From the NCBI RefSeq assembly GCF_001636845.1, contig NZ_LITT01000046.1:62001-126000 (forward strand): 64,000 bases of DNA. Direction: 5' to 3'. Origin of the DNA: Clostridium ljungdahlii. GTDB lineage: Bacteria; Bacillota; Clostridia; Clostridiales; Clostridiaceae. The translations under genes were made by a program, and so were the position numbers. The notes under the pieces are model-generated. The model worked only from the letters and a program-made list of their open reading frames with translations, was not told the DNA's origin and made no database searches. This document shows, one piece after another, positions 32,054 to 37,882 of this stretch. How positions within the stretch are numbered: the stretch's first letter is position 1; the number at the start of each line of letters is the position of its first letter.

Positions 32054-33415
32054 CTAAGCACTGGCACTAACTATAGTAGTATATATTTTTTCAAGCAAGG
32101 TAAGAGCTCCTCTGTAACCTATATATGATTTTGATATAACCACCTCATAAGATGCTGGGAATCCTATTTCCACTATAAATCCCTTTAATTCTTTAGCCAA
32201 ATCTCTTTCCCAAGTAGTACCAAAAATAATAGGAGGCTTGTGTCCAAAATCAGTTTTCCTCAACTTATCATGTATTGTATAGCTATCTTCTTCAAATTCC
32301 ACATCTGTTGAAACATCCTCTGCTATATTTTTATACTGCTCTTTTATAAGATCTCTGTATTTTTCTGGTGGATTATCAGTAATAATTTGTTTTGCAGGTA
32401 TAAGTCCAAGCTGATTTATTAAAAATTTTGTTACCGCCAAATTATAGGCGCTGTCACCTACAACTGCAAATTTAGCAGGTAGTCCCCACCAATACTCTGC
32501 ATAAAAGTCAGAAAAATCTTCCAGATACTCATAATATTTTCTTTCTTCCTTCTCAATAAATTCTTCTGCCTTATTTTTATCTATGCCTGCAAAATCCACT
32601 ACCTTTCTTAAGAAACTGCTTGTTTCCTTTGCTCCTATAGGGATTGTAGGAATATGCAGATATGGCTGTCCATACTTCTTTTTTAAATGTTCTGCAGTTT
32701 TAAGTCCAAGCCATGGGGAAAGCACAAGGTTAAACTGTGCCTTTTTGATATTTTTCCATTCTGAAACTCCACTACTCTCATGTCCAAATAAAATATTGAC
32801 TTCAAAACCTACACCTTCCAGAATTCTTTTAATTTCTGTAAGGTCTCCCCTCCAAAAAGTATTATGATATGGAAGAAGTGACCAGACATTTACAAGTCCT
32901 TTTTTCAAAGGTCCCTTATAATCTCCTACATACTGATCAATAATAGCTTCTGTTACAAGCTCATGCCCAATAAAATTATTTCCTTTGAATCCTCCTGTTT
33001 CAGCATATACCACAGGAAGATTTCTATCTTGAAATTCACTTACTACAGCTCCTACATCATCTCCTACGGTATCTGGTATGCATCCTGTCATAACTACGAA
33101 TAAATCTGCATCAAGAACTTTAAAGGATGATTCAATTAATTCCCTCAGTCTATCTTCGCCTCCAAATACAACTTCTTTTTCATGTATATTGGTGCTTGGT
33201 ACAACAGATGCTCCTCCATAGCCTCCTCCTTGAAATCCATTATAAAAAGATATATTGGAAGTTTGCTTATCTGCACATCCAGGACCGCAGTGAGTAATTG
33301 GAATAACCCTTGGAATTGCAAAGGCACTGTGCATTGCCCCAATGGCACATCCATATCTGACCTGTTCTATTGAATTTGATTTCTCTACATTTTTTGTATT
33401 TGTCACTATTTTCAC
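32054..33415 (-). CDS. Nitrogenase-like component 1, beta (NifK-like) subunit
   Basis: A 453-residue protein of the NifK/NflN group. Three cysteines are spaced like the P-cluster ligands of NifK: C23 (RYGCAIGA), C47 (HCGPGC) and C112 (VMTGCIPDTVGDDV). GTG start with a GGAGTG site, 3 bp after the nifD-like stop. The N-terminal extension of NifK is missing and the C-terminal half is shorter. It probably forms an alpha2beta2 complex with the nifD-like subunit. Likely a reductase for a non-N2 substrate, see findings. Confidence 0.85.
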   Translation of the reverse strand: MKIVTNTKNVEKSNSIEQVRYGCAIGAMHSAFAIPRVIPITHCGPGCADKQTSNISFYNGFQGGGYGGASVVPSTNIHEKEVVFGGEDRLRELIESSFKVLDADLFVVMTGCIPDTVGDDVGAVVSEFQDRNLPVVYAETGGFKGNNFIGHELVTEAIIDQYVGDYKGPLKKGLVNVWSLLPYHNTFWRGDLTEIKRILEGVGFEVNILFGHESSGVSEWKNIKKAQFNLVLSPWLGLKTAEHLKKKYGQPYLHIPTIPIGAKETSSFLRKVVDFAGIDKNKAEEFIEKEERKYYEYLEDFSDFYAEYWWGLPAKFAVVGDSAYNLAVTKFLINQLGLIPAKQIITDNPPEKYRDLIKEQYKNIAEDVSTDVEFEEDSYTIHDKLRKTDFGHKPPIIFGTTWERDLAKELKGFIVEIGFPASYEVVISKSYIGYRGALTLLEKIYTTIVSASA

Positions 33416-33417
33416 TC

Positions 33418-34929
33418 CTATTCCACTGCATAATTTTGCTTTTCAAGTATATATGGGTCTTTCTGATCAAGCCACCATTTTGTATAAGGCAATTTTACAT
33501 GTTCTTTCAAATCTTGATGAAACTTTTTGTGAGCTAATATTTCAAGAATTGTTTCCCCTAAATTTAAAATTCCCTGATAACCTACAGCATGATGTTCATC
33601 CCCAAGTGGTGCTGCTGGAATTCCCATACGAGATGCAAGAGGTGCCAATCCATTATGTCTTATAAGAATAAAATCTGGATTAACTTCTTTTAATAGTCCA
33701 TAAAATTGATACTGCTGTCTGTTGCTCACACTAAATTTAGGAACATCATCATAGTTATCTACTAAAAATTTCAGAGAATCCTTATTTGGATCATTGCTGT
33801 CATATACAGGATCATGGTGAAATACAAGAGAACCATCCACTTGAACTCCTAGTTCTTTAAGTACTGCAATAAGTCCATGGGAATATGCCGAACCTGTAGC
33901 TGCATAACCTTTTTTCCCTTTTAGAAGTTCTCTAAGCTCTTTTAGCCTTGGTGCTATTCTCTTATGTTCTCTCTCTATATAAGCTTCTGCCTTTTCTTCC
34001 CTATGGGTAACCTTGGCAATTTCTCTTATCCAGGCATCAGTTCCTGCAATTCCATAAGGCTGTGGAGCTTTAACCTCCGGTACTCCAAACTGTTCTTCCA
34101 GAACAGCTGCCATATAAGAAGACAACGTATGACAAAATGTAACAGTTGCAGCAGCCTCTGAAAGCTTCTCCAGATCTTCTACTTTAGCTAAATCAATAAC
34201 ATAATTTACTTCAAGACCAAGTTCTTTTAGTATAGGAGTAAACACATCACTTCCCCAAAGATTAATTACATTTATAAGATTTTTTTGTTTTTTAGGATTT
34301 TTATTTACTATTTGTCTTAAAATACCGTGTTGTGTAGCATCAAAACCTGTGCTCCAGTGCTTTGACATAAAGCCTTCACATGGCATTGGTATAACAGGTA
34401 TTTTAAGTTCTTCTTGCATTTTAACTGCAACGCTGTCTACATCTTCACCTATAATTCCAGAAGCACATGAAGTGCCAACAAAAATTGCTTTAGGGTGATG
34501 TCTATTCCATGCATCCCTTATAGATTGCTCTAATTTGCCAAGTGCACCAAATACCATATCAGTTTCTTTTATATTAGTATTTATTATTTGTATATTTTCA
34601 ATAGGTAAATTTCTAATGGCAAGACCATTTCTATATATTGAATTATATGCTACCTGTCCTGTTCCACAACCTATTGGTGCATGTTGAATTAATACTGCAT
34701 CTCTTACATTTCCAGCCTGACATTCTACCATTTGTTCACTGCAGGTTGAACCTTGTGTAAATGGCCCTGAGGCTTCACACAATCTTTTTCCTCCATTTCC
34801 CTTGCAGCCTGCACATGTATAGGCAGAATCCCTGGAAAGCTCAGAAGCTTTTCCAGTTTTCCATCCAATAATAGTTCCAAGTCGCTGCTCACGTGTTTTT
34901 ACTACTGAAGTTTTAAGATTAAATTTCAT
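33418..34929 (-). CDS. Nitrogenase-like component 1, alpha (NifD-like) subunit
   Basis: A 503-residue NifD-type protein. P-cluster-type Cys at 63, 88 (IGCGTG) and 155 (TSCASGIIGEDVDSV) match the NifD spacing. C266 (VTFCHTLSS...EEQFGVP) aligns with the FeMo-cofactor ligand Cys275, and GDEHHAVGYQG (H446/H447) falls near the cofactor His442. An additional Cys trio (39, 42, 51, CAGCKGNGGKRLC) is not in NifD. This retention of P-cluster and cofactor cysteines argues for a NifB-dependent metallocluster. Substrate unknown; methylthio-alkane reductase-like activity is my hypothesis. Confidence 0.85.
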   Translation of the reverse strand: MKFNLKTSVVKTREQRLGTIIGWKTGKASELSRDSAYTCAGCKGNGGKRLCEASGPFTQGSTCSEQMVECQAGNVRDAVLIQHAPIGCGTGQVAYNSIYRNGLAIRNLPIENIQIINTNIKETDMVFGALGKLEQSIRDAWNRHHPKAIFVGTSCASGIIGEDVDSVAVKMQEELKIPVIPMPCEGFMSKHWSTGFDATQHGILRQIVNKNPKKQKNLINVINLWGSDVFTPILKELGLEVNYVIDLAKVEDLEKLSEAAATVTFCHTLSSYMAAVLEEQFGVPEVKAPQPYGIAGTDAWIREIAKVTHREEKAEAYIEREHKRIAPRLKELRELLKGKKGYAATGSAYSHGLIAVLKELGVQVDGSLVFHHDPVYDSNDPNKDSLKFLVDNYDDVPKFSVSNRQQYQFYGLLKEVNPDFILIRHNGLAPLASRMGIPAAPLGDEHHAVGYQGILNLGETILEILAHKKFHQDLKEHVKLPYTKWWLDQKDPYILEKQNYAVE

Positions 34930-34967
34930 TAATTTTACCTCCTCATTGAATTTCTAATGATGATATC

Positions 34968-35795
34968 TTATACTACCTGCTCTACCAGTCCATGAGCTAA
35001 AAATATTTCTTCCAGCTTTTTTTGTGACATTGGCTTTGGAATTACAAAATTTTCATTCTTTTCTATTGCCTCTGCCAGGGATCTATATTCTCTTGCCTGG
35101 TTTGATTCAGGATCAAATTGTATTACTGTTTGTTTATTGATTTCTGCCCTTTGAACTACATTATCTCTTGGTACAAAATAAATAAGCTGCGTACCTAGTT
35201 CCTCTGCAAATGCCTCCAAAAGCTCTTCTTCATTGTCTACCTTTCTGCTGTTGCATATAATTCCACCTAATCTAACTCCACCTTTATTTGCATACTTTTT
35301 TATTCCCTTTGATATATTGTTTGCTGCATACAGTGCCATCATTTCACCACTTGCTACAATATATATTTCCTTTGCCTTTCCTTCACGAATTGGCATAGCA
35401 AATCCTCCGCATACAACATCTCCTAAAACATCATAAAAAACATAATCCAGATCTTCTGTATACGCACCCAGTCTTTCGAGCATGTTTATGGAAGTTATGA
35501 TACCCCTTCCTGCACACCCTACACCCGGTTCAGGTCCTCCTGATTCTACACATTTTATACCATTAAAACCTTCTTTTAATATATAATTTAGATCTACGTC
35601 TTCACCTTCTTCTCTCAACGTATCAAGTACTGTCCTCTGTGCAAGTCCTCCCAAAAGCAGCCTTGTAGAGTCTGCCTTTGGATCACATCCAACTACCATA
35701 ACCTTTTTTCCTATTTCAGATAAACCTGCAGTTAAATTTTGTGTAGTTGTAGATTTACCTATTCCACCTTTTCCATAAATAGCTATTTGTCTCAT
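34968..35795 (-). CDS. nifH: NifH-type nitrogenase reductase (Fe protein)
   Basis: A 275-residue ATP-dependent Fe protein. P-loop [15 protein letters not shown] at the start, C94 (GVGCAGRGI) and C129 ([12 protein letters not shown]) as the [4Fe-4S] ligands bridging the dimer, and the [10 protein letters not shown] switch segment. R97 lies in the usual ADP-ribosylation context. It resembles true NifH/AnfH rather than ChlL or BchL. It donates electrons to the adjacent component 1. The gap to nifB holds a terminator motif (35822-35880). Confidence 0.93.
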
Positions 35796-37576: not shown

Positions 37577-37685
37577 AATAGACATTTAATGCATTATTTT
37601 AAATAAAACTTCTTATTTTAAAATCGGATGAGTGCTCAAAGAGTAACGAGCCATATTAAAATATTTAACATGTCTTATTAAAGAT

Positions 37686-37829
37686 AAAAAACTTCCTGTC
37701 AGAAACTACAGGAAGTTATGTCCTCTTGTTTCTCATCTCTCAGGTTTTACCTGCTGGAATTAACACCTTGAATATAAATTCAGGTTGTCGGGCATCACAG
37801 GGCCAGTCCCTCTGCCTCTCTTGATAAGA
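37686..37829 (-). promoter_or_regulatory. SAM-I riboswitch (S-box) of the nitrogenase-like operon
   Basis: Minus-strand words CTTATCAAGAG, GAGGGACTGGCCCTGTGATG, CCCGACAACCTG, AAGGTGTTAATTCC and TGAGAGATGAGA in consensus order. A terminator with AACTTCCTGTAG and CTGACAGGAAGTT arms plus T-run ends it at about 37686-37718. Next gene on the strand is nifB, about 520 bp downstream with no intervening gene. Confidence 0.95.
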
Positions 37830-37853
37830 AATTTATTTGTTTAATTGTACTAT

Positions 37854-37882
37854 AGTGTAAACTATATTTATTTGTTTGTCAA
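37854..37882 (-). promoter_or_regulatory. Promoter of the nitrogenase-like operon
   Basis: TTGACA (37877-37882) and TACACT (37854-37859), 17-bp spacing, immediately before the S-box aptamer. Confidence 0.7.

Follow-up and report, generated by a model that had tools for sequence, protein, structure and literature searches.

The 64-kb window of Clostridium ljungdahlii DNA described here (the whole analysed stretch, C36:62001-126000 of a 4.36-Mb genome) carries an operon on its minus strand, running from 37882 to 32054, in which a promoter-like site, the aptamer of a SAM-I riboswitch (SAM, S-adenosylmethionine) and its terminator are followed by NifB-, NifH-, D- and K-type genes. This operon very probably encodes a methylthio-alkane reductase (Mar), made up of MarDK, a NifH-type reductase and a NifB-type maturase, which would cleave the C-S bonds of small methyl thioethers to yield methanethiol for methionine and SAM synthesis. 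The operon also contains three copies of GTTGAYYRRAAAAYYRRAGG, two of them after the SAM-I terminator and ahead of marB, the third in the gap from marB to marH, which belong to an antiterminator-like RNA referred to here as the UUGA element. We regard as probable the explanation as a whole, in which a Mar enzyme sits behind a SAM-I gate and further UUGA gates, the latter opened by the small protein DUF2292 (YezD). Mar enzymes make ethylene and methane from organosulfur compounds and keep the nitrogenase clusters, and to our knowledge their control outside purple bacteria has been little explored. The features of the operon and of the adjoining DUF2292 unit are as follows, with lengths in nucleotides (nt) or amino acids (aa).

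37854..37882, minus strand: sigma-70-like promoter site of the mar operon, TTGACA-17-TACACT (10 of 12 consensus matches)
37730..37830, minus strand: SAM-I aptamer heading the mar operon (90.0 bits, E 3.9e-20, gathering score 44.4)
37690..37717, minus strand: intrinsic terminator of the first SAM-I riboswitch (-13.2 kcal/mol)
37549..37580, minus strand: UUGA element 1, antiterminator-like, overlapping a terminator hairpin at about 37486-37560 (44.5 bits; hairpin -34.4 kcal/mol, z -5.0)
37412..37443, minus strand: UUGA element 2, overlapping a terminator at 37391-37420 (45 bits)
35892..37163, minus strand: marB, NifB-type cluster maturase with radical SAM and C-terminal Nitro_FeMo-Co domains (NCBIfam and domain matches)
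35854..35885, minus strand: UUGA element 3, between marB and marH, overlapping a terminator at 35830-35865 (44.3 bits)
34968..35795, minus strand: reductase component, NifH-type (best solved match 1cp2)
33418..34929, minus strand: marD, catalytic alpha subunit (PF00148; MarD match, tree and residues)
32054..33415, minus strand: marK, catalytic beta subunit (PF00148; MarK match)
31808..31836, minus strand: promoter-like site of the DUF2292 unit, TTGATA-17-TATAAT (pattern scan)
31680..31789, minus strand: second SAM-I aptamer (88.4 bits against a gathering score of 44.4)
31635..31663, minus strand: terminator of the second SAM-I riboswitch (terminator scan and folding)
31437..31595, minus strand: gene for a DUF2292/YezD (PF10055) protein of 52 aa (match at C36:93443-93550, 62.5 bits against a cut-off of 22)

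The D subunit scored 824 bits to R. rubrum MarD (9fmg) against 124 bits to the best NifD, and the K subunit scored 780 bits to R. rubrum MarK against 81 bits to nitrogenase, an advantage of about 700 bits for both subunits, with R. rubrum MarDK as the best solved match. Both proteins resemble their counterparts in the R. rubrum MarBHDK system (PDB 9FMG, 9D9U; PMC12552129, accessible text) over nearly the full length, and both fell far below every listed nitrogenase cut-off of NCBIfam (138 bits against 653.55 for nifD, 97.9 against 427.3 for nifK). All nine MarD residues compared are conserved (C70, Q71, H191, W192, F196, C266, H371, R424 and H425); the accessible text of PMC12552129 describes them as cluster ligands or active-site residues in R. 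rubrum MarD. C266, which a first-pass annotation of the sequence had matched to the cofactor ligand, indeed aligns with Cys270, and R424/H425 align with the R428/H429 pair, which according to the same text might be a MarD hallmark; the ligands Cys270/His429 and the second-sphere residues are accordingly kept in the window protein (C266/H425 and others).

In a quick maximum-likelihood tree of 56 sequences (the window protein, 35 of 73 other MarD-type proteins hand-picked for taxon spread, 16 Nfl and four far relatives), whose deep branches are long and unsure, the window MarD nests in a 36-row MarD clade with a Shimodaira-Hasegawa-like approximate likelihood ratio test value of 97, beside Clostridium drakei and C. 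algifaecis and away from the same genome's own Nif and Nfl proteins. The closest named relative, from a set in which records very near the genome itself may be left out, is the C. drakei protein at 96% identity. Bit scores, residues and tree all agree with the first-pass annotation, which had taken component 1 to be Mar-like rather than nitrogenase and had named a phylogeny as a check; the window protein is placed with MarD, not with Nif or Nfl.

The gene set that the annotation had described was recovered, with all open reading frames in place on the minus strand and with NifB, NifH and PF00148 matches. In NCBIfam the marB product is a NifB (446 bits, cut-off 343.65) and the H subunit a NifH (465 bits, cut-off 394.35). 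The latter scored 485 bits to NifH 1cp2, which we take to be the C. pasteurianum protein, and 291 bits to R. rubrum MarH (9fmg_D), and because H scores higher to NifH than to MarH, it is not of MarH type and MarDK appears to be paired here with a NifH-type reductase. In other mar loci the reductases are mostly of the window type (about 80-96% identical to it) or of a distinct type at about 49-57%. As in R. rubrum, the maturase is of NifB type and the operon lacks NifE and NifN (PMC12552129, accessible text); the differences lie in the canonical-NifH-type H and in the SAM-I riboswitch and UUGA elements ahead of the genes. The absence of NifE and NifN, also claimed earlier, holds for the operon and not for the genome, which has a canonical nif cluster with four strong component-1 genes on another contig (C12); NifV and molybdenum genes were not searched for. 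A MarD paralogue, 46% identical, lies on contig C63, in a Mar/Nfl-like operon of order D-K-H-B with 45-46% identity to the window MarD (C63:110000-129000, at 8679-13344), and a scan of that stretch with the first covariance model of the UUGA element, R1, gave no match. This Mar enzyme belongs to a family already described; its partner reductase is of NifH type, and its regulation appears to be new.

SAM-I (S-box, RF00162) is represented in the window by two full matches, each with a terminator as in the rest of the family; the difference is that it heads a nitrogenase-like operon and a DUF2292 gene. The earlier annotation had placed a promoter, an S-box and a terminator ahead of the operon, and all three were found, with the proviso that shuffled sequence contains promoter-like sites about as often (a mean of 29.0, against 32 found). 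We are highly confident in reading SAM-I as the first gate of the mar operon, which, by the logic known for this riboswitch family, would terminate transcription when SAM is plentiful. Among the 80 mar loci (the window and L006-L084) a profile search found SAM-I in at least 8, a lower bound because some loci are cut by contig ends. In two of these loci, L009 and L010, SAM-I and then a UUGA element stand ahead of a transporter gene upstream of marD.

The exact GTTGAYYRRAAAAYYRRAGG pattern has three matches in the genome, all in the mar operon, and the reversed pattern has none. The element spans about 33 nt. In its consensus, a UGA/AG internal loop separates an outer stem from a 4-bp inner stem, which is closed by an A-rich loop; the 3' half of the element doubles as the 5' arm of an intrinsic terminator, so that the antiterminator and terminator folds are mutually exclusive. 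Of 53 elements, 46 have a terminator that begins at the AG box, compared with 227 of 2120 random positions, and three of the seven elements on which the script failed show hairpins by eye. The terminator is the more stable fold in all 148 parsed elements (medians -21.25 against -3.9 kcal/mol; 16 of 164 elements were unparsed), and since it outcompetes the antiterminator the default state would be off, which means that the UUGA elements need something to open them. We therefore hold, with good confidence from folding and alignment, that each element forms either a strong default terminator or a weaker antiterminator hairpin with the conserved UGA/AG internal loop.

The antiterminator fold is corroborated by covariation. 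R1 was built from 17 copies and later refined (R2). The pair between positions 13 and 32, which lies outside the first model, was UG in 18, CG in 15, UA in 15 and unpaired in none. On a further set of 84 distinct rows R2 gave 88.6% paired cells, variation on both sides of all ten pairs and 134 double-change cells against 40 in shuffles. Three of these rows equalled a training element. Once such duplicates and two genomes shared with training loci (L158, the L009 genome, and L171, the L044 genome) had been removed, 80 distinct rows remained, again with 88.6% of cells paired and all ten pairs varying on both sides; double-change cells numbered 126, whereas 300 shuffles averaged 37.6 and peaked at 62, and slid control pairings were 21.5-46% paired. 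The model served both to find and to align the rows, a procedure that works in favour of the structure; further genomes may coincide with training genomes, and part of the first training set had been selected for the presence of both stems. Eight copies were found by sequence pattern alone (three in the window, L007:4122, L015, L021, L022 and L028, the last unused in training alignment A2), and other pattern matches were left out of A2 (window 7773, L008, L046, L061:10993 and L062:17814). An Rfam scan of 35700-37900 at E up to 1 returned only SAM-I over its gathering score and no such family over the UUGA elements; a mir-577 match overlapping element 3 reached 21.6 bits against a threshold of 100.

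In a wider search, R1 gave 82 matches at E up to 10 across 82 loci (79 named MarD-bearing loci and three stretches of the same genome), 73 of them on the same strand as MarD and some in loci from metagenome-assembled genomes (MAGs) of Geobacteraceae/Desulfuromonadales. The element was found at E up to 0.01 in 41 of 146 genomes of an order sample (a single genome holding as many as 43 copies), at E up to 1e-3 in 27 of 398 genomes of a phylum sample, spanning 20 families, and at E up to 0.05 in 17 of 20 mar-bearing genomes, weakly in Paenibacillus and with no match in Cellulosilyticum, Rhodopseudomonas and Magnetospirillum. R1 detects eight copies in the window's own genome, three of them in the mar operon. 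Further copies follow a SAM-I riboswitch ahead of a transporter and mtnK-mtnA-transketolase-RuBisCO-like genes, ahead of an amino-acid-type transporter, and, on contig C10, ahead of a transporter and sulfate-activation genes. In the last case (C10:45000-64999, element at 9269-9301, minus strand) the genes appear by eye to include those of adenylylsulfate reductase and sulfate adenylyltransferase. Two weaker copies lie just 5' of SAM-I aptamers, where the script found no terminator. In the stretch C36:176001-196000, SAM-I is sandwiched between UUGA-like elements (6614-6646, 6878-6910, 19455-19487 and 19723-19755, all minus strand; no terminator found at the upstream copies), and the downstream genes look by eye like a methionine-salvage operon and an amino-acid transporter operon.

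In other genomes the elements precede Mar or Nfl B, H, D and K genes (MarBHDK called by BLAST; all other names, including those of the genes above, were assigned by eye from protein starts), as well as Ssu/Tau-type ATP-binding cassette transporters, MetY/CysK-type enzymes, MetK, dimethyl sulfoxide-reductase-like enzymes, ROK regulators and cell-wall-binding-repeat proteins; some genes seem unrelated to sulfur, such as a phosphotransferase-system-type protein and acetyltransferases. The idea that the element is specific to mar was rejected, as other genes follow it and a search for PF00148 at E up to 0.001 drew a blank in seven of the 27 element-positive phylum genomes. The cell-wall-binding-repeat proteins, S-layer-like by eye (L182:2426-5325, L182:5444-6994 and L007:14703-16515), offer a hint of surface remodelling in sulfur starvation. 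One genome has an island rich in UUGA elements, with many nitrogenase-like and sulfonate-type genes by eye (G090 C1:4205000-4325000, L176-L180).

DUF2292 was picked out as a partner from the genes behind elements and by phylogenetic profiling; among clustered open reading frames of at least 55 aa around the mar loci, no regulator was recognised by eye in clusters present in six or more loci. The only DUF2292 match of the genome adjoins the 3' side of marK, under its own SAM-I riboswitch. DUF2292 proteins consist of a single domain of about 55 aa or a tandem of about 115 aa. In the phylum sample DUF2292 is present in 25 of 27 element-positive genomes and in 43 of 371 element-negative genomes (p 2.5e-19, odds ratio 95), and in 24 of the 25 element genera out of 271 (p 6.8e-19), kinship being handled through this genus count only. 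PF00148, the only sulfur/nitrogenase family profiled as a control, showed a weaker link (20 of 27 against 110 of 371 genomes; odds ratio about 6.8, by hand). Conversely, 29 of 31 DUF2292 genomes of the order sample have an element, and the three mar-bearing genomes without an element are the same three that lack DUF2292. Adjacency points the same way: the 25 phylum genomes positive for both contain 43 DUF2292 matches, each domain of a tandem being counted separately, of which 12, spread over 11 genomes, carry an element on their 3' side, 0-250 nt away and on the same strand (chance expectation 0.004); on the 5' side no match has an element. Among 20 scanned DUF2292 loci, six have SAM-I just 5' of the gene. 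AlphaFold predicts a helix and a beta-hairpin with moderate confidence (predicted local distance difference test score 79, predicted template modelling score 0.52), and the sequence has no PDB match at E up to 1. In Bacillus subtilis, the accessible text of PMC10714963 lists yezD as down in a whiA mutant together with the methionine-salvage genes mtnU-A-K, possibly a hint of a sulfur link.

Several observations weigh against this combined picture of enzyme, gates and opener. Twelve of the 41 element-positive order genomes lack DUF2292, mostly genomes with weak matches and two with strong single ones (G110 and G135), and the 43 element-negative genomes, as well as the control B. subtilis, have DUF2292 without a detected element; a shared regulon alone would also yield co-occurrence of the two. 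The DUF2292 model resembles nothing in the PDB (Foldseek best E 1.8), and we therefore infer RNA binding from genomics alone. According to the accessible text of PMC6385201, deletion of B. subtilis yezD did not reduce survival in deep starvation. SAM-I directly heads the mar genes in only two of 80 loci, the window and C. algifaecis (L007), and as H is nearer NifH than MarH, its activity with MarDK is an assumption. Seen by eye, the G110 locus resembles a decayed sulfonate/sulfotransferase region.

Could the UUGA element instead be a small riboswitch for an ion or a sulfur metabolite, with DUF2292 just another gene of the regulon? The conserved UGA/AG internal loop and covarying stems would suit such a sensor, and DUF2292 genes can themselves sit under SAM-I, but a single hairpin of about 33 nt with a variable A-rich loop would be unusually small, its terminator is far more stable than the antiterminator, and the element is more tightly associated with DUF2292 than with the nitrogenase superfamily; we consider this reading rather unlikely. 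Another RNA-binding protein, for example of a known antiterminator family, might bind the element with DUF2292 as a passenger, as the 12 order genomes without DUF2292 and a predicted structure that gives no hint of RNA binding would allow. In 11 of the 25 genomes that have both, DUF2292 lies right beside elements, on their 5' side, and it is present in nearly all element genera, which makes this reading unlikely.

The remaining alternatives fare considerably worse. Terminators are common in leaders, and the three elements could be ordinary ones that are alike by chance or through recent duplication, yet the covariation extends over many genomes, the element occurs in 20 families and in the Geobacteraceae/Desulfuromonadales MAG loci, and the strand bias is strong, all of which renders this highly improbable. 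Reading the operon as an alternative nitrogenase or as a backup for nif is scarcely credible: its NifH and NifB are of nif type, but D and K favour MarDK over NifDK by a wide margin and carry the MarD residues, the genome has a separate canonical nif cluster, SAM-I control fits sulfur rather than nitrogen, and R. rubrum MarDK is reported not to reduce N2 in vitro (PMC12552129, accessible text). A nitrogenase role was rejected on D/K sequence and tree placement.

Under the preferred explanation, high SAM would cause the SAM-I terminators to shut the mar operon and the DUF2292 unit alike, whereas at low SAM both gates would open and DUF2292 would build up, hold the antiterminator hairpins and let the polymerase read past them to reach marB and marHDK; element 3, which separates marB from marH, may let the cell tune the ratio of maturase to enzyme. 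Because DUF2292 is made from the adjacent SAM-I-controlled gene, low SAM would raise the factor and so open the operons. For DUF2292 as the best candidate opener, acting in this way on mar and other organosulfur operons, genomic support and doubt are evenly balanced. Somewhat more tentatively, and short of even confidence, DUF2292 may represent a new class of RNA-binding antitermination factor that together with the UUGA element controls a regulon for sulfur starvation, with as many as about 40 sites in a genome, throughout the phylum and probably in Geobacter relatives, placed behind SAM-I as two RNA gates in series. The first-pass observation is thus confirmed and its interpretation supported: MarDK and SAM-I stand as described, while H proves to be of canonical NifH type and SAM-I only one of two apparent regulatory layers. 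The three antiterminator-like elements, the SAM-I/DUF2292 unit right behind marK and the NifH-type nature of H had been overlooked.

Protein-dependent antiterminators are known from the RAT (ribonucleic antiterminator) hairpins of LicT/BglG and from the ANTAR RNAs, whose two hairpins have hexanucleotide loops. These share with the UUGA element a hairpin that overlaps the 5' arm of a terminator and is mutually exclusive with it, whereas the UUGA element is a single hairpin with a mostly 4-5 nt A-rich loop and a UGA/AG internal loop, has DUF2292 as its co-occurring gene, and differs by eye from the RAT consensus; no search for CAT or ANTAR proteins was made. An ANTAR-type RNA was rejected by inspection for the single hairpin and short loop, and kink-turn and PyrR-loop readings of the internal loop were weighed by eye and dropped. 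The mar genes of R. rubrum are reportedly controlled by the activator SalR; the name does not occur in the searched text of PMC12552129. In the accessible text of PMC10418091 and PMC9147875, Mar homologues (MarHDK-like genes) of clostridia and heliobacteria were noted before and tied to methionine salvage or sulfur assimilation, the same gene type and sulfur link as here; no control by RNA is mentioned there and the word 'riboswitch' does not occur in the searched text of either, although an earlier version of PMC10418091 has 'SAM riboswitch' twice. One sentence in the accessible text of PMC2965389 mentions an attenuator, given no name, that precedes an operon for a sulfonate transporter and an unknown gene; it shares the sulfonate transporter context with the UUGA elements and may be identical or related to them. 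The best, weak, element match in the Paenibacillus genome precedes a gene resembling, by eye, the transporter-binding proteins behind other elements. In the accessible text of papers that mention YezD or DUF2292, PMC6385201 and PMC10714963 among them, yezD is called unknown or hypothetical or merely listed. Apart from the attenuator sentence, a literature search, with most subscription papers outside its reach, returned no description of the element or of a DUF2292 function, and both element and partner appear to be undescribed so far.

Around these features, 37906-45775 (minus strand) holds by eye a cluster of molybdopterin oxidoreductase, ferredoxin, transporter and Asr-type sulfite/nitrite reductase genes, and the 3' side of DUF2292 (30206-31315, minus strand) holds genes for the MnmM tRNA methyltransferase and S-ribosylhomocysteine lyase (LuxS), possibly in one SAM-controlled transcript with DUF2292. 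Between element 2 and marB lies a stretch of about 190 nt that looks GC-richer (37190-37385); an exact 24-mer from it occurs in only seven of 219 loci, every one overlapping that place. Other RNAs of the window are a T-box leader (20844-21043, minus strand), a tetrahydrofolate riboswitch (17873-17989, plus strand) and a fluoride riboswitch (9199-9258, plus strand).

These results place a Mar enzyme behind a SAM riboswitch and suggest that a widespread RNA element, together with a very small protein, may form an antitermination system for sulfur starvation. If this is true, it would give a function to DUF2292/YezD, and the UUGA element would serve as a marker for unknown organosulfur genes, including those of uncharacterised nitrogenase-like operons.

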